Shown: piece by piece, positions 7,228 to 18,006 of the stretch
Numbering within the stretch: the stretch's first letter is position 1
Layout of the letters: every line of letters begins with the position of its first letter
Assembly: GCA_017531225.1 (NCBI GenBank)
Contig: JAFXLL010000012.1
Location: forward strand, 248,001 to 312,000
DNA: 64,000 bases
Source: Bacteroidales bacterium
GTDB lineage: Bacteria > Bacteroidota > Bacteroidia > Bacteroidales > F082
Direction of reading: 5' to 3'
The notes under the pieces: model-generated
The model's database searches: none
Seen by the model: the letters and a program-made list of their open reading frames with translations, nothing else
What the model was told of the DNA's origin: nothing
Position numbers and translations under genes: made by a program

Positions 7228-9015
7228 ATGATTAACGTAACAATTGATAACAAACAGATTCAGGTCCCGGAAGGCACTACTATCCTTAAAGCCGCCCGCA
7301 TGGCCGGTATCCATATTCCTACCCTTTGCTATTTTGAACTGGCAGGAATGAAATTTGAAAACAAACCCGGTGGCTGCCGCGTTTGCGTCGTCGAAGTCGT
7401 GAAGGACTTCAACGGTCGTCCTCGTCGTAACCTAGCCCCGGCTTGCGCCACCGACTGCGTGGAAGGCATGGAAGTGCTGACCCACAGCGCCCGCGTCATC
7501 AACGCCCGTCGCACCGTCGTCGAGCTGATCCTCAGCGACCACCCGACCGACTGTCTCACCTGCGCCAAGAGCGGCAACTGCGAACTGCAGAGCCTGGCCC
7601 AGTACCTCGGCATCCGCGACATCCCGTTCAAGGGTGAACAGAGCCACTATCGCCAAGACATGTCGCCCAGCATCGTGCGCGACATGGACAAGTGCGTCAT
7701 GTGCCGCCGCTGCGAGAACATGTGTAACAACGTCCAGACTGTCGGTGCCCTGAGCGCCATCAACCGTGGCTTCAGCGCCGTCGTGGCTCCTGCCTTCGAG
7801 CAAGACCTCGTCGATTCACCGTGCGTCATGTGCGGTCAGTGCGTCCAGGTTTGCCCCGTTGGTGCTTTGACCGAGGTGGACGACACCCGCAACGTCATGG
7901 CTGCCATCAACAATCCTAAGAAGACCGTCATCGTCAACACAGCTCCTGCAACACGTGTTGCCCTTGGTGAAGAGTTCGGAATGCCTGCCGGAACTATCGT
8001 TACCGGTCAGATGACAGCCGCTCTGCGTCGCCTCGGCTTCGACTATGTGTTCGACACCGACTTCGCTGCCGACCTTACCATCATGGAGGAAGGCACCGAA
8101 CTCCTCGGCCGTATCAAGAGATATATGGAAGGCGACAAGTCAGTCCGTCTGCCTATCCTGACCTCATGCTGCCCAGGTTGGGTCAACTTCTTCGAGCACA
8201 ACTTCCCCGATATGCTTGACGTTCCTTCAACCGCCAAGTCACCTATGCAGATGTTCGGCGCTGTCGCCAAGAACTACTGGGCTGAGAAGATGGGCATCAA
8301 GAGAGAAGACCTCGTCGTCGTCTCCATCATGCCTTGCTTGGCTAAGAAGTACGAAAGCAAGCGTAAGGAATTCTACAAGGACGGCAACCCGGATATCGAC
8401 TACGTGCTGACCACCCGCGAATTGGCTCGCTTGATCAAGCAGTTCAACCTCAACCTGAAGGATATGCCTTCAGAGGATTACGACGATCCGCTCGGCGAAT
8501 CCACAGGTGCTGCCGTCATCTTCGGTGCTACCGGCGGTGTGATCGAGGCTGCTACCCGTACCGCTTACGAAGTGTTCACCGGCAAACCGCTGCCTAAGAT
8601 CGACTTCACTGAACTCCGTGGTATCGAGGGCATCCGCGACGCTTGGGTTGACTTCGACGGTACTCCTATCCACATCGGTATCGCTCACGGTCTGAGCAAC
8701 GCCCGCAAGCTCCTCGAAAGAGTGCGCGAAGGTAAGGAACAGTTCCATGCTATCGAGGTGATGGCTTGCCCCGGCGGTTGCGTCGGCGGCGCTGGTCAGC
8801 CCTACCACCATGGCAACAGCGAGATCATCAAGAAGCGTACCGAAGCCATCTACCGCGAGGATGCTGGCAAACCGATCCGTAAGTCACACGAGAATCCTTC
8901 CATCAAGAAGATCTACGAAGAGTACTTTGGTGAACCTTGCGGCCACAAGTCACACGAACTGCTGCACACCCACTATTTCGACAAGTCGGAACATGTTGAG
9001 ATCAGCGAGGATTAA
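7228..9015 (+). CDS. hydA: [FeFe]-hydrogenase catalytic subunit HydA
   Basis: The 595-residue catalytic subunit reversibly converts protons to H2. The N-terminus has a [2Fe-2S] ferredoxin domain (cysteines in LCYF, GGCRVCVV, ACATDC), then the His-ligated [4Fe-4S] motif HPTDCLTCAKSGNC near residue 108, then a two-cluster ferredoxin (CVMCRRCENMC, CVMCGQCVQVC). The H-cluster signatures are complete: TSCCPGWVNFFE near 312, MPCLAKKYESKR near 370 and MACPGGCVGGAGQP near 513. It sits between hydB and hydC, as expected for a trimeric (group A3 type) bifurcating enzyme using NADH and ferredoxin. The HydEFG maturases are not in this window. A degraded relative of this gene lies at 10502-10621. Confidence 0.95.
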   Translation: MINVTIDNKQIQVPEGTTILKAARMAGIHIPTLCYFELAGMKFENKPGGCRVCVVEVVKDFNGRPRRNLAPACATDCVEGMEVLTHSARVINARRTVVELILSDHPTDCLTCAKSGNCELQSLAQYLGIRDIPFKGEQSHYRQDMSPSIVRDMDKCVMCRRCENMCNNVQTVGALSAINRGFSAVVAPAFEQDLVDSPCVMCGQCVQVCPVGALTEVDDTRNVMAAINNPKKTVIVNTAPATRVALGEEFGMPAGTIVTGQMTAALRRLGFDYVFDTDFAADLTIMEEGTELLGRIKRYMEGDKSVRLPILTSCCPGWVNFFEHNFPDMLDVPSTAKSPMQMFGAVAKNYWAEKMGIKREDLVVVSIMPCLAKKYESKRKEFYKDGNPDIDYVLTTRELARLIKQFNLNLKDMPSEDYDDPLGESTGAAVIFGATGGVIEAATRTAYEVFTGKPLPKIDFTELRGIEGIRDAWVDFDGTPIHIGIAHGLSNARKLLERVREGKEQFHAIEVMACPGGCVGGAGQPYHHGNSEIIKKRTEAIYREDAGKPIRKSHENPSIKKIYEEYFGEPCGHKSHELLHTHYFDKSEHVEISED

Positions 9016-9583: not shown

Positions 9584-9705
9584 CTATATGACTCTCTTCA
9601 AATGGATTGCCAGTGCGTCAAGTCTGACATTCTCGTTAGAGGATTCGAGTAGTTTATCAGCTTCGTTGATTTAGCTTCTGAGGACAAAGTTGAATTGTTC
9701 TGTCA
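9584..9705 (-). pseudogene. Interrupted short reading frame after the retropepsin gene
   Basis: On the minus strand one frame reads LTEQFNFVLRS, a TAA stop, then INEADKLLESSNENVRLDA, LAIHLKRVI and TAG, ending exactly at the hyd terminator. The composition (charged amphipathic helix) looks coding, but there is no start codon and one in-frame stop. It may be the tail of a decayed gene. Weak evidence. Confidence 0.25.
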
Positions 9706-10140
9706 GAATACAATTTCTTCCTTCGATGGGATTCTATAGGTAAACGTCGTGTTGCCATCCTTGTTGGTTAGAGCCATGTCGCCCTGACAAATAACATCCA
9801 TGCCGATCACGACATCATAATCATCACTGTCAAATTCCATGGCAACGACATTAGTAACAACGTCACCCGTTGGCAAGCCAAGATGAATCAAATAGGTGTC
9901 TTTAATATCAACTCCGTTATTATAACCGGAAACGCCCGATTTACCGATACTCTTTAGGTTCAATACATTCACCACTCTTTTGGAAATAAGCGTAGCAGAG
10001 GCGCCCGTGTCCCATAGGGTTTTTGTCACCTTAACACGTTTAACCTTTTCTTTCCATAAAATGTTAGTCGGAGAATAAACATAGCTTTCGGTTACGACAC
10101 AATCAACATTATTGGCGTGTCGTTGAGTATAGGCTCCCAT
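9703..10140 (-). CDS. Retropepsin-like aspartic protease
   Basis: The 145-residue protein has the single-domain retropepsin layout: the catalytic DTGAS motif in LWDTGASATLIS near residue 44 and the second hallmark VVIGMDVI near residue 112, before a beta-rich end. Such single-domain proteins act as homodimers, with one Asp from each subunit. There is no signal peptide or membrane segment, so it appears cytoplasmic. The start lies 4 bases after the stop of a 50-residue gene that shares its promoter, so the two form a small operon. Substrate and role are unknown; proteolytic activity itself is only inferred from the motif. Confidence 0.75.
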   Translation of the reverse strand: MGAYTQRHANNVDCVVTESYVYSPTNILWKEKVKRVKVTKTLWDTGASATLISKRVVNVLNLKSIGKSGVSGYNNGVDIKDTYLIHLGLPTGDVVTNVVAMEFDSDDYDVVIGMDVICQGDMALTNKDGNTTFTYRIPSKEEIVF

Positions 10141-10501: not shown

Positions 10502-10621
10502 TTCAACCTTGACCTGAAGGACATGCCGAGCGAAAACTACGGCGATCCGCTGGGCGAATCCACAGGTGGTGCCGTCATCTTCGGTGCCACTGGCGGTGTG
10601 ATCGAGGTTGCTGTGCGAGCC
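10502..10621 (+). pseudogene. Remnant of a second [FeFe]-hydrogenase catalytic gene (hydA)
   Basis: Translated from 10502 this stretch gives 40 residues matching HydA residues 406-445 (for example FNLDLKDMPSENYGDPLGES against FNLNLKDMPSEDYDDPLGES), 33 of 40 identical by eye. Many codons differ by synonymous changes, so it is a copy of a different, older hydA rather than a recent duplicate. There is a stop (TAG 10493-10495) just before it, no start, and a stop soon after. Both flanks are unrelated, so it is a dead fragment, in the same orientation as the hyd operon. Confidence 0.85.
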
Positions 10622-10680: not shown

Positions 10681-10757
10681 ATATGACTGAAAAATAAGTC
10701 ATATTAAGTGAAACCATGCGGAAATATTGAAAATTGGAAATTTTTTTCAATATTTCC
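10681..10757. terminator. Two hairpins at the end of the WYL gene
   Basis: A 14-bp perfect inverted repeat GGAAATATTGAAAA / TTTTCAATATTTCC (10720-10733 with 10744-10757) overlaps the last codons and stop of the WYL gene. A second one, ATATGACT / AGTCATAT (10681-10688 with 10697-10704), follows on the minus strand. The first is likely the 3' stabilising or terminating hairpin of the leftward AAA-LRR-WYL transcript, but lacks a strong T-tract. Confidence 0.5.
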
Positions 10758-11655
10758 CCAGCATCTCTTCCAGCAATCCTTTCATCCCTTCCCTTAGAGA
10801 AATCGGTTCCAGCACTTCAATATGCGCGTTCATGGTAAGTAGTTGCTGGATGAAGTCATAAGAAGGCTTTAGCCGCCATGAGAAGATGGTATAGTCGTCG
10901 GCCTCTTCTACGATGCGTTGGCTGTGGTGCAAAGGCAAGCCTTTCAGGAAGTTGCTTTGGTCTTTGTCTGCCTTGACGAGGATTTCTTCTGTTTTCAGGT
11001 CTAGCTCCACATAGATGCCGAAAGCGTCTTGAAAGTGTGTCTGCAAATCAAAATTCCCTGGAGCCTTGAAGGTGGCCTTTGTGAGGCAGAGCGTGTCAAT
11101 GCGGTCTAACGCATAGCAACGAATTTCTTCCTTCTCGTTTAAGGCTATCAAATACCATCGTTGCTTGAACAGCTTCAGGGCAAGCGGCTTGCAACTGTAT
11201 TGCTTGATGTCATCCTTGCCATAATACCGCCTGTATTGCATCTCGATTTCAAGGCTCTTCTCCAAGGCTTCCATAAGCGGCTCTAAATGCTCAATGCCGC
11301 CTGGTATGCGCTCAAATTGCACCCGCTTGCGCAGACTGAGGTCTGAAGAAAGTCTGTTGTTGAGGGCAAAGCTATGAAGCAGCCACATCTTCAAGTCGTT
11401 GCCAAGCATTTCCTCGCGCTCGCCTTGGGGAATGTAGTAGGCATTGCGGCTTTTGTCGCACTCAATGTCAATGCCGAATACATCGGCAATGTATTGGCGG
11501 TAGTTATGGAACGATCTTTCAGGGATTGGGTCGTTGTCATCATTCCTCGTCCACCTGTCATTGAGTTCCTTCAGGGTGATGCCTGCATCCCGCCTGTCGG
11601 CGATGGTGTTGGCAATCCAGATGCATTTGATGAGTTTGTCCATAAGGTGCTTCAT
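10747..11655 (-). CDS. WYL-domain transcriptional regulator
   Basis: The 302-residue protein has an N-terminal helix-turn-helix-like region (residues 1-70, with LKELNDRWTR and RSFHNYRQYIADVFGI) and a WYL-type sensor core (SCKPLALKLFKQRWYLIALN near residue 160, then RCYALDRIDTL). WYL proteins bind nucleotide-like ligands and regulate transcription, including of phage-defence loci. The start is ATG 11655: the upstream in-frame TTG at 11667 lies inside the promoter box. That box is only 8 bases before the ATG, so the message may be leaderless. The gene is third behind the AAA and LRR genes but also has its own promoter. It may bind the paired palindromes at 14106 and 17984. Confidence 0.85.
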   Translation of the reverse strand: MKHLMDKLIKCIWIANTIADRRDAGITLKELNDRWTRNDDNDPIPERSFHNYRQYIADVFGIDIECDKSRNAYYIPQGEREEMLGNDLKMWLLHSFALNNRLSSDLSLRKRVQFERIPGGIEHLEPLMEALEKSLEIEMQYRRYYGKDDIKQYSCKPLALKLFKQRWYLIALNEKEEIRCYALDRIDTLCLTKATFKAPGNFDLQTHFQDAFGIYVELDLKTEEILVKADKDQSNFLKGLPLHHSQRIVEEADDYTIFSWRLKPSYDFIQQLLTMNAHIEVLEPISLREGMKGLLEEMLGKY

Positions 11656-11663
11656 ATTTGCTC

Positions 11664-11695
11664 GCAAAGATAATGGTTTTATGCAATCACCCCAA
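11664..11695 (-). promoter_or_regulatory. Own promoter of the WYL regulator
   Basis: Minus-strand TATCTTTGC (11664-11672) with TTG (11693-11695) 20 bases upstream. It lies in the short gap after the LRR gene stop, so the regulator can be made independently of the AAA operon. Confidence 0.65.
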
Positions 11696-11697
11696 CA

Positions 11698-12411
11698 TTA
11701 TTCTTCCATCAGCAGCTCCCACGTCTGTTTGAGTGGAAACAGCGCTTCAAACTTTTTCCTCGTCCCCTTGGGTATGAGAATCCTTTTCAATTCTCGGCAA
11801 CCCTCAAATGCTGTAGGGTCAATCTTTGAGATGTTTTTGGAAAGCCTTACCGTGTCCAACTTACTGCACCAGGCAAAAGCGCATCTTCCAATCTTCATCT
11901 TCGTGCCAGGATAGGCAGTGAAGTAAACCGCTTCCAGATATTGGCTCTCCATGAAGGCGTTTTCGCCTATTTCCGTGACTTCCACGCCGCCATCAGACAC
12001 GCCATCATCCACCACTACAGGTATCGTGTATTCCTTGTTGGCTCTGCCACTTGGGTATTGGAATAAGGTGTAGCCGTGACTTTTGCTAAAGCGGTCGTAG
12101 TTCCTTTCAAACAGCACGCCATTTTGGGTCAGATAGTTGAGGCAATGCGGAGGCCCTTGCCTGAAAGCTATCGAGTCCAATTGCTTGCACCGCGCAAAGG
12201 CATTTATGCCAATCCGCTTAATGCCGCCAGAAAGGACGATATACTTGACATTGTTGGCGTTTTCAAAGGCACTTTCGCCAATGTATTCAACACTATTAGG
12301 CAGCACGATTGATTTGATGCCCTCAAAGCTTTCGTACCTGAAAGCAAAGTCCCCTATATCTGTGATGCCTGATGGTATTTGCAGGGTGAATTTTTGTTTT
12401 TCTTCTTTCAT
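11698..12411 (-). CDS. BspA-type leucine-rich repeat protein
   Basis: This 237-residue protein contains repeats of the LRR_5 (BspA/Treponema) type, for example GITDIGDFAFRYESFEGIKS, VEYIGESAFENANNVKYIVL, IKRIGINAFARCKQLDSIAF and ISKIDPTAFEGCRELKRILI, spanning nearly the full length. These repeats form a curved solenoid used in protein binding. There is no signal peptide, which is unusual since many relatives are secreted, so it probably binds a partner in the cytoplasm. It lies 20 bases after the AAA ATPase gene and 42 bases before the WYL gene in one leftward operon. An adaptor or recognition role beside the ATPase is plausible but inferred. Confidence 0.85.
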   Translation of the reverse strand: MKEEKQKFTLQIPSGITDIGDFAFRYESFEGIKSIVLPNSVEYIGESAFENANNVKYIVLSGGIKRIGINAFARCKQLDSIAFRQGPPHCLNYLTQNGVLFERNYDRFSKSHGYTLFQYPSGRANKEYTIPVVVDDGVSDGGVEVTEIGENAFMESQYLEAVYFTAYPGTKMKIGRCAFAWCSKLDTVRLSKNISKIDPTAFEGCRELKRILIPKGTRKKFEALFPLKQTWELLMEE

Positions 12412-12431
12412 GTTGCTACTGTTTTTGTGAA

Positions 12432-14063
12432 CTAATATCCGATTCTATGTCTGTTTTCAACGATGTTTTCCTCTTCGCAAAAGCCGATGAGCATTTCTAG
12501 GTTAGGCATTTGACCTGTTAGGATATGCTCAACGGTGGCTTTTCTCGTGATGTTTTCCATCTGTCCGCCGCTGAAGTAGTAACGTTCAGCAAGGATGGCC
12601 ACATCGCTTTCAGGAAGGTCGGGCATCATGCTTTGCCAGATTTGGAGGCGTGTGGCGCAGTCGGGTTTGTGGAAGTTGATTTTGTAGAGGAAACGTCGTT
12701 CAAAGGCAGAGTCCATGTTTTGTGTCAAGTTGGTCGTGGCCATCATAATGCCGTCCAAAGTTTCCATCTCTTGTAGGATGATGTTTTGCAGCGTGTTTTC
12801 CATTTGGTCAACGGCATGGATGGCGTTGGTGGAACGTTTCGCAATGATACCGTCTGCCTCATTGAAAAGCAGGATGGGCTCTTTGTCACAAAACTCCACG
12901 AAATTGCGATAACGGTCGAAGACGTCCTTCACCCTTTTCTCGCTTTCGCCCACCCACTTGCTGCGCATCTCCGAAAGGTTGACTTGCATGATGTTTCGAC
13001 CCGTGGCGCGGGCAATTTGCAGCACGGTCTCAGTCTTTCCCGTGCCGGGTGCGCCATACAGTAGGCAAGCAAAGCCGCAGCGCATCCCTTGTTGCTTCAT
13101 CCTGAGCCTGATGTCGCTGAATGATGTCGGTTGCAGCAGGCTTTTCAACCGTTCTATTTGAGCTTGGTCGTTCGCGTTATAGTACAGCCGTTTCTCGGCA
13201 ATGCTTGTTGACAAGGTGAGTTCGTCAAGGTCAATTGGTGTCTGTTTGAGATTTTTTTGGGGCAATAAAGTTTCTTTGGCGTGGTCAGTCAGTCGGAAAG
13301 TGTCTCCTGAAAATAGCTCTCGGCCAGCGGGTTCCACCAACTTGTCAACGATAAGCCGGTGTTGCCCGTTGCGCAGTCGGTTGAATTCCGTTTTGGCTTG
13401 TCTGTCATTGTCAAAAAGTTCATCAATATCTCGATACTCCAAACTGTCTTCTTGGTCAATGAGCGTACTTAGACAGAACTTCAGCAGCAATACCAGCTCT
13501 TTGTCGTCGAGGTTCATCCTGTCGAGTTTTTTGGCAAAATCTAACTGGGGGTTTGCCATGATGAGTTCGCGGATGTCATAGACGAAACCCTCATAGTTGC
13601 TGCCTTTCTCTTCCATTTCCTTGAAAAGCGTGTCCAAATGCAGAATGAATGCGTCGAAGTCAAGGTTGCCTATTTCTTGCCGCTCAATCTCCTTGTCATA
13701 CAGCAGGCAGTTGAGTATTTCATCTGGCACAAAGTAGCTTTCGTCGTTAAACAGTCCTTTTTTCCCGGTGACACGGATGAGCCGCGCCCGTTGCAGGGCT
13801 TTCAAGTCAGGAGAGAGCCGAAGCATGTCGAGGTTTTCGCAGCCAAGATGCCGTTTGATGTCGGAGAGCGAACAATCGTCGTTGTAGGATGAGCTGGCGA
13901 TGATGGCGAACAAGGTCGTCTGTGCCTTGCTGACACCCAGTTTTTTTGCCAGCCTTTCAAGCGGTTGGGCGTTTTCGGCCATGAATAGGCTGCTCATTTT
14001 GCAGTCTTCCGATGCATTGACAATCTTTTCGATGTCAAGCAATGAGGTTGATTTTGCTTTCAT
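12432..14063 (-). CDS. AAA family ATPase
   Basis: The 543-residue protein has a helical N-terminal half of about 300 residues with winged-helix-like stretches (SDIKRHLGCENLDMLRLSPD) and a C-terminal AAA+ module. Walker A is GAPGTGKTET near residue 342; Walker B reads ILLFNEADG near residue 400, with Asn where most AAA proteins have Asp. Sensor/arginine-finger features are ATTNLTQNMDSAFERRF. It is the first gene of an operon with an LRR protein and a WYL regulator. The promoter box TTGTTTTGC lies 27 bases upstream and is overlapped from above by a 9-bp palindrome also present at the unknown three-gene operon. Likely a remodelling ATPase; substrate unknown. Confidence 0.85.
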   Translation of the reverse strand: MKAKSTSLLDIEKIVNASEDCKMSSLFMAENAQPLERLAKKLGVSKAQTTLFAIIASSSYNDDCSLSDIKRHLGCENLDMLRLSPDLKALQRARLIRVTGKKGLFNDESYFVPDEILNCLLYDKEIERQEIGNLDFDAFILHLDTLFKEMEEKGSNYEGFVYDIRELIMANPQLDFAKKLDRMNLDDKELVLLLKFCLSTLIDQEDSLEYRDIDELFDNDRQAKTEFNRLRNGQHRLIVDKLVEPAGRELFSGDTFRLTDHAKETLLPQKNLKQTPIDLDELTLSTSIAEKRLYYNANDQAQIERLKSLLQPTSFSDIRLRMKQQGMRCGFACLLYGAPGTGKTETVLQIARATGRNIMQVNLSEMRSKWVGESEKRVKDVFDRYRNFVEFCDKEPILLFNEADGIIAKRSTNAIHAVDQMENTLQNIILQEMETLDGIMMATTNLTQNMDSAFERRFLYKINFHKPDCATRLQIWQSMMPDLPESDVAILAERYYFSGGQMENITRKATVEHILTGQMPNLEMLIGFCEEENIVENRHRIGY

Positions 14064-14090
14064 GATGCTTTTGTTTTGTTGATTTCATCG

Positions 14091-14130
14091 GCAAAACAAA
14101 AACAAAACTCTGCCAATTTCAGGCAGAGTT
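14091..14130 (-). promoter_or_regulatory. Promoter box and operator palindrome of the AAA-LRR-WYL operon
   Basis: Minus-strand TTGTTTTGC (14091-14099) is followed upstream, after 6 bases, by the perfect palindrome AACTCTGCC-N7-GGCAGAGTT (14106-14130). The same box and an almost identical palindrome occur at 17968-18006 at the same spacing. The palindrome covers the expected -33 region, as expected for a repressor or activator site. It could double as a terminator of the HsdR_N gene. Confidence 0.6.
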
Positions 14131-14150
14131 GATTGATTTGTTTGAAAATA

Positions 14151-14177
14151 GTTGGAGTAGTTGGAGTAGTTGGAGTA
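14151..14177. repeat. Three tandem copies of a 9-mer
   Basis: GTTGGAGTA is repeated three times without interruption in the gap after the HsdR_N gene stop. It is a short tandem repeat, probably variable in copy number; no function is evident. Confidence 0.8.
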
Positions 14178-14241
14178 TTAGATACGCTTCATTTTATAAC
14201 AAAGAGAGAGGTTAGAATTATGTTTTCGATAAATTGCCATA

Positions 14242-15369
14242 TTAAAATAATGGCGGCTCAATGGTAGCTTTTATATTATCTTCAACTATTATTTGTTGAA
14301 TAATCATCCTCTTCAAATAAGTATTGTGGTATCTCGTAATAAAAAGATTCTTTTTCGCCCCTTGGGGGTAGTCGATTTTTTTTGGTTCTATGGGTTCCGT
14401 AATGAAATCCTCTTTTTGGGATGATACAACTGTAATCATAAAACGATTGTTTTGTTGAAGCCTGATAACGCTATCAATGTGCGTTTCTATAAACTGTAGG
14501 AAAGTTTCTGTCGGGTTTTTCCCTTTAATAATACTATTGTTTTCTTTGATAGAAAAAGACTCCTCCCAATTTTTGGGTTTACAATGTACCGTTTCTTTTT
14601 CAATTGAGAACTGTTTACTAATCGTGTTTTTGCTAAAACTGTTGAAAAAGGATTCGATTTTTTCATCCTCTTCAGTATTCATAATGTCTATGGATTTGAT
14701 TATATCTCCATTTTCTTGACTACGAATTTGCCACAAATAACCATTTGTCAAAATCCCATATTTTGTGTTTAAATTCTCAGGTTGCATATAGTCGCGCAAT
14801 TGGTCTCCTTCACTTTTATTTAGATTGGTTTGAATAGCTTTGGCTTCAATAACTAAAACACATTCCCCATTTTTATATAAAGCGTAATCAGCCCTTCTCC
14901 TATGACATGTCTTTTCTCTGTTTAAATCAGGTAAATTCCAACCAAGAGCGTTGAAGATGGGTTCTATGATTTCAATTCTAACATTCATTTCATTTCGGCA
15001 AAACAAATACGTGTGCTTGCTAATTAATTCCCTAATATTTTCTATGATGGTTAGTAATGGCGTTTTTTCTATTGATTCTTGTCTGAGCTTTAATAAATCA
15101 TCACCAGCACTGAACCCTATGGAAATTACATTTTTTGAGAGAAAAGTGATTGTCGCGATATTGCCTACATCGATTTTGTGATTCTTGTATAGAGCAGTCA
15201 ATCCATCAATACGTCCGATTTGAGTCGAATGCATCTTAAAATTGCCCTCATAGTTTTGAATTGTTATTTTTTCACCTGGTTTCGGGCATCTGTTTGAATA
15301 CTCTTTTTCAATTCTCAGATAACCATATTTGACTTCACTATAAGTCAACCTTCGTTTGTAATCACTCAT
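14242..15369 (-). CDS. HsdR_N-like PD-(D/E)XK nuclease-domain protein
   Basis: The 375-residue product resembles the N-terminal nuclease domain of type I restriction HsdR subunits. Near residue 145 it has IIEPIFNALGW, then RRADYALYKNGECVLVIEAKA, which supplies the D-(E)-x-K pattern, then LRDYMQPENLNTKYGILTNG and LWQIRS. No helicase or methylase partner is nearby, so it is a stand-alone protein of the kind often annotated in Bacteroidota. The N-terminal 110 residues may be a separate beta domain. The gene is clearly richer in A+T than its neighbours, which hints at recent acquisition. A role in defence is possible but not shown. Confidence 0.75.
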   Translation of the reverse strand: MSDYKRRLTYSEVKYGYLRIEKEYSNRCPKPGEKITIQNYEGNFKMHSTQIGRIDGLTALYKNHKIDVGNIATITFLSKNVISIGFSAGDDLLKLRQESIEKTPLLTIIENIRELISKHTYLFCRNEMNVRIEIIEPIFNALGWNLPDLNREKTCHRRRADYALYKNGECVLVIEAKAIQTNLNKSEGDQLRDYMQPENLNTKYGILTNGYLWQIRSQENGDIIKSIDIMNTEEDEKIESFFNSFSKNTISKQFSIEKETVHCKPKNWEESFSIKENNSIIKGKNPTETFLQFIETHIDSVIRLQQNNRFMITVVSSQKEDFITEPIEPKKIDYPQGAKKNLFITRYHNTYLKRMIIQQIIVEDNIKATIEPPLF

Positions 15370-15558
15370 GTTTATTCGTTATTTTGGTTTGTTAATTTTT
15401 TATTTTTTTTCTTTTGTTCCATTATTCATGTATTCTTCTGGTGTTAATTCTTTGAAAAACTCATATTTGGTCGATTCATTGTCTTTTATAACTACGAATC
15501 TTAATCATTCTAATGTTTATGCGGCAAATATACTGTTTTTAGATGCACATGCTCTTTT
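15370..15558 (-). other. AT-rich gap with promoter box and a possible decayed small frame
   Basis: Minus-strand TATATTTGC (15524-15532) is a good -7 box for the HsdR_N gene. Downstream, an ATG at 15506-15508 opens a frame that ends after ten residues, while the next frame reads VVIKDNESTKYEFFKELTPE and EYMNNGTKEKK to a stop at 15400-15402. A single-base indel would join them, so this may be a broken or frameshifted small gene. Confidence 0.3.
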
Positions 15559-16227
15559 CTAAATGATTAGCCCTCCATCCATCCTGATACAAATCTCAAA
15601 CTCAAACTCGCTCACATAAACAAGATCATAGAGGCTGAAATGTCGGTTGTCATAGAGGTTGTGGAAAGGATAAACAAGGTGCATGTCTTTCGACCATTCG
15701 TAATCCAAGCCCTCGTTCCAGTTGTCGTTTTCGTCTGCCATGCCGAGCCACGCTTCAAGGCTGTCGTGCGCTGACATGTTTCCGGTCTGGTTCCATCTCA
15801 GGCTCCAAGAGCAGCCGTCTGTGGAATAAATGCGGTCGTAGCCGCCTTGGGTCATCACTTCCCACATCGTTTCCGCTCGCTCGGTCTGGACGGGATGCAC
15901 CGTAGGGTAGGTATAACCTAGCTTCAGCTTTCCTTCAACTTCAAGGTCACCGATGCCGTCATAAAGTTTCATCATGCCCTCGTGTATGGCTTTCGTCTTG
16001 TTGAAAAGGGCAGTGGCTGCTGCCTTTATCCTGTCGTTGAAATCCGACAGCAGCCTTTTGCTTTCCTCATCGTACTGCATCAGCTCACGCAGTATCATCC
16101 ACCGATGGTGCAGCGCATTCTTGATGATGCTTTCCTCTTCGACTTGTTTCCCGTGCTCGTACTCGTCCAAGATGATTCCTTCCAGCATCACGATGCGCGG
16201 ATCTTCAAATGCTTCTTTGGTGTTCAT
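15559..16227 (-). CDS. Hypothetical protein (last gene of the unknown operon)
   Basis: A 222-residue protein without a recognised family. The first 100 residues are helical and charged (EYEHGKQVEEESIIKNALHH, SDFNDRIKAAATALFNKTKA). The second half is rich in aromatics and acids (CSWSLRWNQTGNMSAHD, DENDNWNEGLDYEWSKDMHL) and looks like a compact beta-containing domain. There is no signal peptide or membrane segment. Its start lies one base after the stop of the membrane-protein gene at 16229-17299, so the two are translationally coupled. Function cannot be assigned. Confidence 0.7.
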   Translation of the reverse strand: MNTKEAFEDPRIVMLEGIILDEYEHGKQVEEESIIKNALHHRWMILRELMQYDEESKRLLSDFNDRIKAAATALFNKTKAIHEGMMKLYDGIGDLEVEGKLKLGYTYPTVHPVQTERAETMWEVMTQGGYDRIYSTDGCSWSLRWNQTGNMSAHDSLEAWLGMADENDNWNEGLDYEWSKDMHLVYPFHNLYDNRHFSLYDLVYVSEFEFEICIRMDGGLII

Positions 16228-16228
16228 G

Positions 16229-17299
16229 TCAGTTAAACCCGTTTGCTGCTGCTTCCAGCATTTTCTTGTTAATCCTCGTGTATCTGTTCACTTGCTTCGT
16301 CGTCATGCTGCCCGAAGCGTTTTCCAGCTGTTCACCCAATTCCTCTGCTTTCTCCAACAGCTTTGCATATTGCGACATTGCATCCATTTCGCCACCAGCA
16401 ATCCTCTTCAAACAAGCGATGTATCTGTCAACATAGTTTTCGTAAGCATCGAGCACTTTGTCCCAATCGTTTGTGGCAGTTACTTGCCCTCTGCCTTCTA
16501 TGATTTCGCAAGCAGAGGTGATTTTGAAAGTAAGCTTGTCTTTAGCTTTATCTTCGTATGGGTTAGTGTCCCAACGGATGATACCGATTTCGCCTGGTTG
16601 GAGTTTCATAAGGTCGAGTATGTCATTACTGCTGTATGGCCCCAGAAGCCCTGTGGCTGTCGCTGAGCGTTTGTCTACCAAGTTGCCATCCTTATCAAAG
16701 GTCTCCAACCCGAATCCAACTTTACAGTAGGCTCTTCCATCGGTGTATGTGTCGTTGAATTTTGCCACTGTCACACCTTCATCCCATGGGAAAGGCATGT
16801 CAGTACGCTTCAACTCCACATTCCAGAGCGACCACCTTCCTTCTGTGGCAATGATTTCTTTCTCGACCACCTCGAAATATCCGCTTAGGTCACCTGTGAT
16901 TTCTGTAGTCTGTGGCGACATGGTAGGACGTTTGTTTCCAGCGCAACTGAAAAAGACTAAAGTAAGAACAAAGAGAAGACAAACGAATGCTTTCTTTCTC
17001 CTCAACCACAATAGTGGTTTCCGTGGGCATGTGAGGTGCAACGCCGTGTTGTCAATATCAAGCGTGTACTTGATGGTGTCTCCCGGTCTCAGTTCATAAC
17101 GGTCATAGAGCTTGCTCAATCCTAAGACGCGGTTGAATTTGGTTGCACAAAGTTGATGCGTGTGGGTACGTTCGTCAACAATGACGACTTGCTGCGGAAC
17201 TTGTGTGTATTGTTTCCAAAACTCAGGAGGCATAGTAAAAGTTCCGTAGTGAATTTCCCATCTGTCCAATGTCTTTTGTTTTTTGTTTCTCTGTTCCAT
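16229..17299 (-). CDS. Hypothetical membrane-anchored protein with internal lipoprotein-like segment
   Basis: The 356-residue frame has a soluble N-terminus of about 95 residues (LYDRYELRPGDTIKYTLDID), then LRRKKAFVCLLFVLTLVFFS-CAG, and an outer domain of about 230 residues ending in a helical, Glu-rich tail. The hydrophobic segment with basic start and FFSC is a textbook lipoprotein signal. Read from the first ATG it would be an internal membrane anchor; read from the in-frame TTG before RRKK it would be a free lipoprotein. The family is not recognised. It follows the 205-residue gene by 27 bases and is coupled to the gene behind it. Confidence 0.65.
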   Translation of the reverse strand: MEQRNKKQKTLDRWEIHYGTFTMPPEFWKQYTQVPQQVVIVDERTHTHQLCATKFNRVLGLSKLYDRYELRPGDTIKYTLDIDNTALHLTCPRKPLLWLRRKKAFVCLLFVLTLVFFSCAGNKRPTMSPQTTEITGDLSGYFEVVEKEIIATEGRWSLWNVELKRTDMPFPWDEGVTVAKFNDTYTDGRAYCKVGFGLETFDKDGNLVDKRSATATGLLGPYSSNDILDLMKLQPGEIGIIRWDTNPYEDKAKDKLTFKITSACEIIEGRGQVTATNDWDKVLDAYENYVDRYIACLKRIAGGEMDAMSQYAKLLEKAEELGEQLENASGSMTTKQVNRYTRINKKMLEAAANGFN

Positions 17300-17326
17300 T
17301 TCTATAGTTTTTAATGATTGTTAGTA

Positions 17327-17944
17327 TTATTGAAAGCACTGATACATTGCTTGTGTCTCTTTGACTAAATTGTCCTCAACAAAGCCATCCCAATCGAAAG
17401 GCGTGGGCAAAACAAATTGGAAGCCAAGGTTGAGGTCGGTCATGTCGCAAAGCGTTTCATCTTCGATGGGTAGATGATGGCGTTCATAATAAGCGTGTTC
17501 CTTGATGAGGTTGCTGCCCATAGTGGCAAGCCATTCATTAAGCTGAAGCTGTTCGTCTTTAGCTCGGTACCAGATGCCGTGAATCAGTCTTTTCTCCGTG
17601 CCGTTCACCCAATAGACAGCAATTTCGTTGAAAAGGTTATCGTCAAAGATCATCTTCCCAATGCGCGATTTTGATTTGCTACAGCCTGCGTGAAAGTAAG
17701 TTTGAAGATCAATACGCGCCAGTTGGTCTGTGGTGTAACAGTCGCCCAAAGCTTCGTACAGCACATCAATCAGACTTTGACAATAGGCAAAGGCTGCTTG
17801 TCGTGCCTTGCTGAGGTCGGCATCCTCAAAGGTTTTGTTGATGCTGCAAAGGTTGTCTTTCTTTGCTTCGTGATAGTTCGCGTTGTGCATTTGTTCTTTC
17901 CAGAACAGCCCATGCACGAGGTAATGAGATTTCTTTTTGTCCAT
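17327..17944 (-). CDS. Hypothetical protein (first gene of the unknown operon)
   Basis: A 205-residue cytoplasmic protein beginning MDKKKSHYLVHGLFWKEQMH. No family is recognised. The sequence is mixed helix with many aromatic and charged residues and two short Cys contexts (GDCYTTDQLA, AGCSKSKSRIG), but no metal motif. A longer in-frame extension exists upstream but runs through the Nudix gene and its promoter, so ATG 17944 is chosen; it lies 23 bases from the promoter box. It leads a three-gene operon that shares its control signature with the AAA-LRR-WYL operon. Confidence 0.65.
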   Translation of the reverse strand: MDKKKSHYLVHGLFWKEQMHNANYHEAKKDNLCSINKTFEDADLSKARQAAFAYCQSLIDVLYEALGDCYTTDQLARIDLQTYFHAGCSKSKSRIGKMIFDDNLFNEIAVYWVNGTEKRLIHGIWYRAKDEQLQLNEWLATMGSNLIKEHAYYERHHLPIEDETLCDMTDLNLGFQFVLPTPFDWDGFVEDNLVKETQAMYQCFQ

Positions 17945-17967
17945 AGCGGTGTTGTTTTGATGTCGGT

Positions 17968-18006
17968 GCAAAACAACAACCTTACTTTGCCAAAAATAGG
18001 CAAAGT
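17968..18006 (-). promoter_or_regulatory. Promoter box and operator palindrome of the unknown operon
   Basis: Minus-strand TTGTTTTGC (17968-17976), 7 bases, then the palindrome ACTTTGCC-N7-GGCAAAGT (17984-18006). This copies the layout at 14091-14130. Here the palindrome lies between divergent genes, so it cannot be a terminator, which supports the operator reading of both. Confidence 0.6.

Follow-up and report, generated by a model that had tools for sequence, protein, structure and literature searches.

The window analyzed here, 64,000 nucleotides (nt) of a Bacteroidales genome (contig JAFXLL010000012.1, positions 248,001 to 312,000), carries two minus-strand operons, each preceded by a palindrome and an identical promoter box. 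Operon 1 (17944 down to 15559) comprises the genes A205, B356 and C222, and operon 2 (14063 down to 10747) encodes an AAA ATPase, a leucine-rich repeat (LRR) protein and, last, a WYL regulator. We consider it probable that the two palindromes, hereafter operators 1 and 2, are sites of this WYL protein and that the latter activates both operons, which would belong to a set of exchangeable, defence-like cassettes. The operators, the geometry of their promoters, their co-occurrence with WYL genes and the turnover of the cassettes can all be followed at the sequence level.

Operator 1 (ACTTTGCC-N7-GGCAAAGT, 17984..18006, minus strand) lies ahead of operon 1, and operator 2 (ACTCTGCC-N7-GGCAGAGT, 14107..14129, minus strand) ahead of operon 2; both are exact matches to the palindrome. 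In a 25-bp frame, operator 1 reads CACTTTGC-N9-GCAAAGTA and operator 2 reads AACTCTGC-N9-GCAGAGTT (14106-14130 on the minus strand, that is, the 23-mer and one extra pair). The promoter box, TTGTTTTGC, is found 7 nt downstream of each 23-mer, at 17968..17976 for operon 1 and 14091..14099 for operon 2, again on the minus strand. The operator frame thus stops 6 nt short of the box, TTTGC begins 10 nt past the 25-bp frame in both cases, and the ATG follows the box by 23 nt in operon 1 and by 27 nt in operon 2. The first-pass annotation of this DNA had placed both palindromes, the box at equal distance and the two start codons exactly so. This box corresponds to the -7 element known from Bacteroidota, with the consensus TAnnTTTG (PMC7366714), and in the window it takes the form TTGTTTTG both times.

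Exact matches to the palindrome are confined to these two places in the 2,583,400-base genome; up to 2 mismatches, two extra places were found, and the reversed control gave three per strand. Within the window, the 2 matches obtained at up to 3 mismatches were equalled in 18 of 100 shuffles, which makes this test weak by itself. Among 100 genomes of the genus, the exact palindrome occurs in 16 (reversed control, 0 of 100) and an orthologue of the WYL gene (at least 78% identity) in 17, with 14 genomes possessing both (hypergeometric P 1.7e-12), so that the palindrome proved to be conserved alongside the genes. Two palindrome-bearing genomes, G068 and G086, lack a full WYL gene. At G086 the site appears fortuitous: a correctly placed box is missing, the palindrome falls within a called gene, and no WYL gene turns up in 19.5 kb of sequence. 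Near variants of the palindrome are present in the three genomes (G014, G058 and G080) that have WYL but not the exact form, and two of the WYL orthologues (G024 and G058) have an internal stop. The co-occurrence of the two operons, which the first-pass annotation had proposed as a check, was borne out as well: A205 is present in 15 of 150 relatives, 14 of which encode a near-full WYL orthologue at 78% identity or more, the fifteenth (G068) retaining only a WYL fragment. The relatives with names comprise Candidatus Limimorpha equi and uncultured Bacteroidales, many of ruminant-gut origin. These distributions support a link between the two operons, and a palindrome that tracks the WYL gene.

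Alignment on the ATG of 16 sequences upstream of A205 and 14 upstream of the AAA locus (window included) revealed conservation of the palindrome, the box and the leader, the palindrome spacer being variable. Further upstream, the orthologous loci split into several unrelated groups, some of at least two loci sharing their upstream DNA. Conservation from the palindrome to the ATG next to divergent upstream DNA is the footprint expected of an operator. Solitary copies of the window-type operator were also observed in genomes G057 and G068 (L117:2029 and L118:7089, respectively), on contigs other than that of the main locus; the L118 copy is accompanied only by a truncated AAA start.

The gene order in relatives can be summarized as operator 1, A205, (B356), (C222), a variable slot, operator 2, (AAA), (LRR) and WYL, the genes in brackets being those not always present. 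The slot is occupied by HSDR_N proteins in the window and in two other loci (L050, L052), by an Mrr_N-like gene together with a B3-like gene in L051 and L054, and by LRR genes in L053, L055 and L064. For the HSDR_N gene of the window (14242..15369, minus strand, between C222 and operator 2), inspection by eye gave a separate consensus-like -7 box, TATATTTG, and no palindrome. Judging from these loci it is one of several interchangeable slot occupants, and the earlier idea that it is perhaps a co-regulated part of the system is not supported. The same applies to a fixed AAA-LRR-WYL system, as some relatives lack AAA or LRR, or have only broken copies, yet retain WYL and the palindrome: in L062 the AAA gene is missing and the LRR gene sits behind the identical operator and leader, and in L060 similarity to AAA ends after about 60 residues. 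The unit would therefore be WYL plus operator-tagged cassettes. In 11 of 18 genomes, by hand count, the neighbourhood of the locus includes a gene resembling purN or YitT (named by eye); the window locus lies between hydrogenase-like genes on one side and a Nudix-like gene on the other (also named by eye), hence at a different position from those relatives.

Such turnover could also be expected if the palindrome were mainly an attachment-site-like tag for recombination or insertion of mobile cassettes, with regulation being secondary. Conservation across the locus groups indeed begins at about the palindrome, one and the same operator and leader can precede different genes (L062 versus L060), and island content changes. 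We nevertheless regard this explanation as highly improbable: the promoter spacing is conserved over lineages with different palindrome arms (see below), which points to transcription, and homologous recombination between shared promoters would account for the exchange without a dedicated enzyme.

A sister circuit was recognized through the AAA protein, relatives of which, at about 40% identity, bound larger islands ending in a WYL gene at about 36-38% identity; one of these sister islands resides in the window's own genome (G000:C8). Their palindrome, GCCTGTGC-N9-GCACAGGC, agrees with AACTCTGC-N9-GCAGAGTT at 5 of 8 arm positions when the two are centred, and occurs exactly in 33 of the 100 genus genomes (reversed control, 0). 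At up to 3 mismatches, 124 distinct sites were collected, at least one in 29 of 32 fetched loci and up to 8 in a single locus (L123). TTTGC is in range at 109 of these sites and begins 10 nt past the palindrome in 94, 11 nt past it in 12 and elsewhere in 3, the strand having been picked by the presence of a box, a choice that favours finding a box but not its offset; the remaining 15 sites have a variant box or none. An open reading frame (ORF) of at least 50 amino acids (aa) lies no more than 200 nt downstream of 112 of the 124 sites. These ORFs form 29 families, 11 of them single-member and some perhaps spurious.

The sister sites also bear on whether the palindromes are intrinsic terminators of the preceding gene, that is, GC-rich hairpins with a T tract. 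At 114 of the 124 sites of the GCCTGTGC class at least 5 of the next 8 nt are T, and at 99 a co-directional gene lies upstream, at a median distance of 32 nt. Operator 2 is itself terminator-like on both strands, but in a scan whose total did not exceed that of shuffles (8 against a mean of 9.3). Moreover, according to mechanical ORF calls, the upstream neighbour is divergent at 22 of the 124 sites, with 3 others lacking a neighbour altogether, and 8 of 13 orthologous loci show such divergence at operator 1; a terminator needs neither TTTGC exactly 10 nt downstream nor a link to WYL. Of the explanations considered here, we give this one the least credence, although the palindrome of the GCCTGTGC class may double as a terminator.

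The geometry extends to more distant WYL lineages. In 64 WYL loci of other Bacteroidales (964,291 nt; WYL identity of at most 59%), we looked for TNTGC-N9-GCANA with at least 7 of 8 arm positions paired, followed by TTTGC or TTCGC. The box was found at offset 10 in 17 cases (16 loci), three of which (L153, L163 and L164) had been found earlier with the offset preset, and never at offsets 0-9 or 11-25; palindromes with any other spacer length between 3 and 15 gave 0-1 occurrences. Arms at these loci include ACCTCTGC, AGCTATGC, CACTCTGC, CCCTGTGC and AGATATGC, and among the first genes behind them are WYL itself, a C222 relative and, by eye, genes for proteins of FtsZ-like and HAD-like type. When 295 genomes of the order were scanned without regard to WYL, 11 of them yielded a total of 16 sites (with the reversed control, 2 genomes were positive). 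Four of these sites come from the window's own genome, namely the two window operators and two in the sister WYL island. A WYL relative lies no more than about 10 kb away in 6 of the 10 other positive genomes, compared with none of 13 control neighbourhoods around matches with the box misplaced by 4 nt (Fisher P 0.002). WYLs of the same lineage share operators. At the sequence level, then, the arms vary between WYL lineages and the geometry is constant. The first-pass proposal of one co-regulated system accordingly stands as far as the linkage of the two operons is concerned, but as a self-contained system it gives way to one lineage of a wider WYL-operator family. A WYL gene apparently split by a mobile element was noticed on a plasmid of Segatella copri DSM 18205 (L303:1738-4782), where an IS607 transposase/TnpB pair has a WYL-annotated piece on either side; an operator-like palindrome lies upstream, with TTTGC at +10. 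In the cultured relative Prevotella sp. E2-28, a site resembling the operator precedes the AAA gene.

The position of the operators bears on how the regulator acts. With an offset of 10, 19 nt separate the palindrome centre from the beginning of the downstream -7 box, which puts the centre roughly at the expected place of a -33 element. A TTG 17-23 nt ahead of the -7 box was found in 0 of 94 sister promoters and in neither of the 2 window promoters (that of operator 1 has one at 24). The -7 boxes of sister cargo promoters are themselves degenerate, beginning with TT in 90 of 93 cases (TA in 2, CA in 1); in sister promoters with a WYL or RhuM-like first gene the start is TA in all 17 (6 sites without a called ORF, comprising 3 TT, 2 TA and 1 TG, were excluded). 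The WYL/RhuM operators are more degenerate, with a mean of 2.0 mismatches as opposed to 0.8 in cargo.

The first-pass annotation had proposed repression, and a repressor of the BrxR/CapW type, sitting on the palindrome over the -33 region, blocking RNA polymerase and released by a phage-derived ligand, is the alternative that deserves most attention. BrxR and CapW, which repress BREX and CBASS defence loci, both contain a WYL domain and recognize inverted repeats (PMC9122601, PMC9122588), and a palindrome over -33 could obstruct sigma. The parallel extends to the presence of a WYL-domain protein beside defence-like genes and, in the BrxR pEFER island, to two operator boxes. However, the CapW palindromes are described as overlapping -10 and that of BrxR as lying downstream of its -10 (PMC9122601, PMC9122588), whereas the window operators end 6 nt upstream of -7, neither overlapping it nor downstream of it, and sister locus L123 has up to 8 sites. 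A repressor would also be expected to act on good core elements, yet -33 is lacking and the sister cargo -7 boxes are degenerate; nor does a steric block need exact spacing to be kept across lineages. No BREX core or CBASS cyclase models were among the PADLOC matches of the 7 window proteins (E up to 1), and the match to TRIP13, a CBASS accessory protein, covers the AAA domain only. Repression is therefore unlikely in our view, if far from negligible.

The operator position, the fixed spacing and the defective promoter elements together argue for activation, which they favour over repression. The regulator class is already known. DriD, a WYL activator of Caulobacter that responds to single-stranded DNA (ssDNA), is described in a preprint (PMC12340889) as binding, at several promoters, the palindrome ATACGAC-N7-GTCGTAT, which covers the -35 region and keeps a constant distance to a poor -10; its targets include didA and bapE. 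The window circuit resembles it in the WYL-domain regulator, the palindrome over the -35/-33 region, the constant spacing to a weak -10/-7 and the multiplicity of promoters; it would differ in having adjacent, interchangeable island cassettes as candidate targets, and in the divergence of its arms. Poor core promoter elements, as would be expected with a WYL activator of the DriD, SiwR and PafBC type, are seen in both sister cargo and window promoters. SiwR and PafBC are mycobacterial WYL activators in genotoxic stress; the SiwR palindrome lies between -35 and -10, and SiwR controls the neighbouring operon (PMC10693628, PMC11804915). They belong to another phylum and promoter type and, as described in those papers, control one adjacent operon or about 150 genes rather than an exchanging island. 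Our literature search found no operator-tagged, multi-cassette circuit of fixed geometry with lineage-specific arms. The PDB sequences nearest to the window WYL are WYL entries (E about 5e-7 to 2e-6), which we take to be DriD. Arg166 and Arg185 are invariant in 54 aligned WYLs and Arg179 is conserved in 49, a pattern compatible with ssDNA in the WYL groove.

Several observations weigh against the activator reading. A core-plus-box operator was not found in 48 of the 64 distant WYL loci, and 4 of the 10 scan-positive genomes have no WYL nearby (two are cut by a contig end). Among 15 WYLs dereplicated at 70% identity, operator distance did not correlate with WYL distance (r 0.12, p 0.18); with this correlation lost after dereplication, fine matching between operator and WYL is unproven. 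The lack of -33 is weak evidence, because a -33 motif was likewise not found in Flavobacterium (PMC7366714). The TT/TA split is limited to the GCCTGTGC lineage, the others being mixed by eye, and both window boxes begin with TT, including that of the WYL operon. Finally, A205, B356, C222 and the LRR protein had no match in the PADLOC search (E up to 1).

From the whole we infer binding, activation, a ligand and a defence role for the system, along the following lines. The WYL protein encoded at the end of operon 2 would bind operators 1 and 2, covering the place of sigma's contact with a -33 element and keeping an unvarying distance to a weak -7 box. Its ligand would most likely be nucleic acid in single-stranded or otherwise aberrant form, arising in phage infection or DNA damage; once this is sensed, WYL would recruit RNA polymerase to the two operons as DriD and PafBC do. 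Since WYL is encoded in operon 2, self-amplification would follow. The exchangeable cassettes would comprise the AAA ATPase, the LRR protein, C222 and a membrane-anchored B356 in the window, and GmrSD, PD-(D/E)XK, Mrr and HSDR_N nucleases as well as FtsZ-like and FtsK-like proteins in related islands. As each cassette carries its operator-promoter tag, an incoming effector would be under the resident regulator on arrival.

By Pfam, operon 2 has the composition read from the letters alone in the first pass (AAA, LRR_5, WYL and WCX, with HSDR_N between the operons). The AAA+ ATPase (12432..14063, minus strand) has a Cdc48/VCP-like AAA domain at about residues 322-514. It was considered as IetA of the Iet defence system and rejected (NCBIfam IteA, 85 bits against a cut-off of 510; no IetS match among the 7 window proteins). 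The LRR protein (11698..12411, minus) is of the BspA type according to Pfam. In the WYL-WCX regulator (10747..11655, minus), the proposed binder of both operators, WYL (2.2e-13) and WCX (1.2e-08) are above cut-off, and residues 1-121, where an N-terminal winged helix-turn-helix was looked for, had no Pfam match. PADLOC (E up to 1, 7 window proteins) assigned WYL and Cas3c models to this protein, IetA, TRIP13, DolB and mad8 to the AAA domain, and PD_DExK to the HSDR_N protein. The latter, PD-(D/E)XK-like and 375 aa long, matches only HSDR_N models above cut-off; a type I restriction enzyme HsdR was rejected, as the helicase/translocase motor was not found.

The three genes of operon 1 had been called unrecognised, which stands for the products of 205 and 222 residues but not for B356 (16229..17299, minus), a match to Pfam DUF6591 above cut-off. 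A205 (17327..17944, minus) belongs to no known family, and its structural model is of low confidence (predicted local distance difference test, pLDDT, 51.5). C222 (15559..16227, minus) is a recurrent island gene with a mostly helical model (pLDDT 82) that had no convincing match among PDB folds. In B356 an N-terminal domain is followed by hydrophobic residues resembling a lipobox (by eye), and the C terminus is DUF6591-like; this C-terminal part is free-standing with a lipoprotein-like start in some relatives. The N-terminal domain, of about 80 residues, is shared by B356 (16229-17299) and the HSDR_N protein (14242-15369; hhalign probability 89.5, E 2e-6). Might this be a common targeting domain ahead of differing effectors?

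Among the matches listed for 68 cargo representatives of the sister islands, Pfam gave 13 GmrSD_N, 6 GmrSD_C, 3 PDDEXK_4, 3 Mrr_N, 2 NucS_C and 2 HSDR_N, and further matches to Nmad2, Nmad3, FtsK, tubulin/FtsZ, HAD_SAK and MoxR. Restriction-like nucleases are thus abundant in the cargo. The leading PADLOC models (HEC-06, Orf5, SspE and NsnA) matched up to 10 of 68 cargo members and at most 2 of 66 flank members among the matches listed, which cover the first 25 families, the two sets being unmatched in length composition; several of these models probably reflect the same GmrSD proteins, and flank members have strong single matches too (PDC-S01, PDC-S23). A tubulin/FtsZ-like GTPase recurs in the islands (L123:13445-14107 by Pfam; operator-tagged at L185:3664 and L285:12126 by eye). 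MoxR-vWA, FtsZ-like and FtsK-like cargo recalls the conflict systems described in eLife 2020 (PMC7159879), the description of which, as far as consulted, does not include a shared operator-promoter or WYL control. Judged by its cargo, a defence role of the sister islands is likely, and A205, B356, C222 and the LRR protein may have one too, by the company they keep.

Two further features adjoin the window island. Just beyond the WYL 3' end, a 111-bp partial copy (10502-10612) of a hydrogenase-like gene (8443-8553), 85.6% identical, is perhaps a scar of island insertion, and a small aspartyl-protease-like ORF (9703-10140; gag-asp_proteas, 2.8e-07) lies between the hydrogenase genes and the island.

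To our knowledge, little is known about how defence islands are regulated. More broadly, we tentatively envisage, as a possibility somewhat short of even, a plug-and-play immune regulon of Bacteroidales, in which acquired cassettes with a lineage-specific WYL operator and a broken sigma-ABfr promoter would not be expressed before the resident WYL activator detects nucleic acid that is damaged or foreign, and would then be switched on together, operator and regulator diverging into insulated circuits, two of them in this genome. The WYL regulators of defence described so far in the sources consulted, BrxR and CapW, are repressors, and the operator code makes the question of activator or repressor directly testable. 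The code NNNTNTGC-N9-GCANANNN, with TTTGC 10 nt on, would predict the genes of Bacteroidales WYL regulons from sequence alone, and the promoter tag would lead to new effector families.

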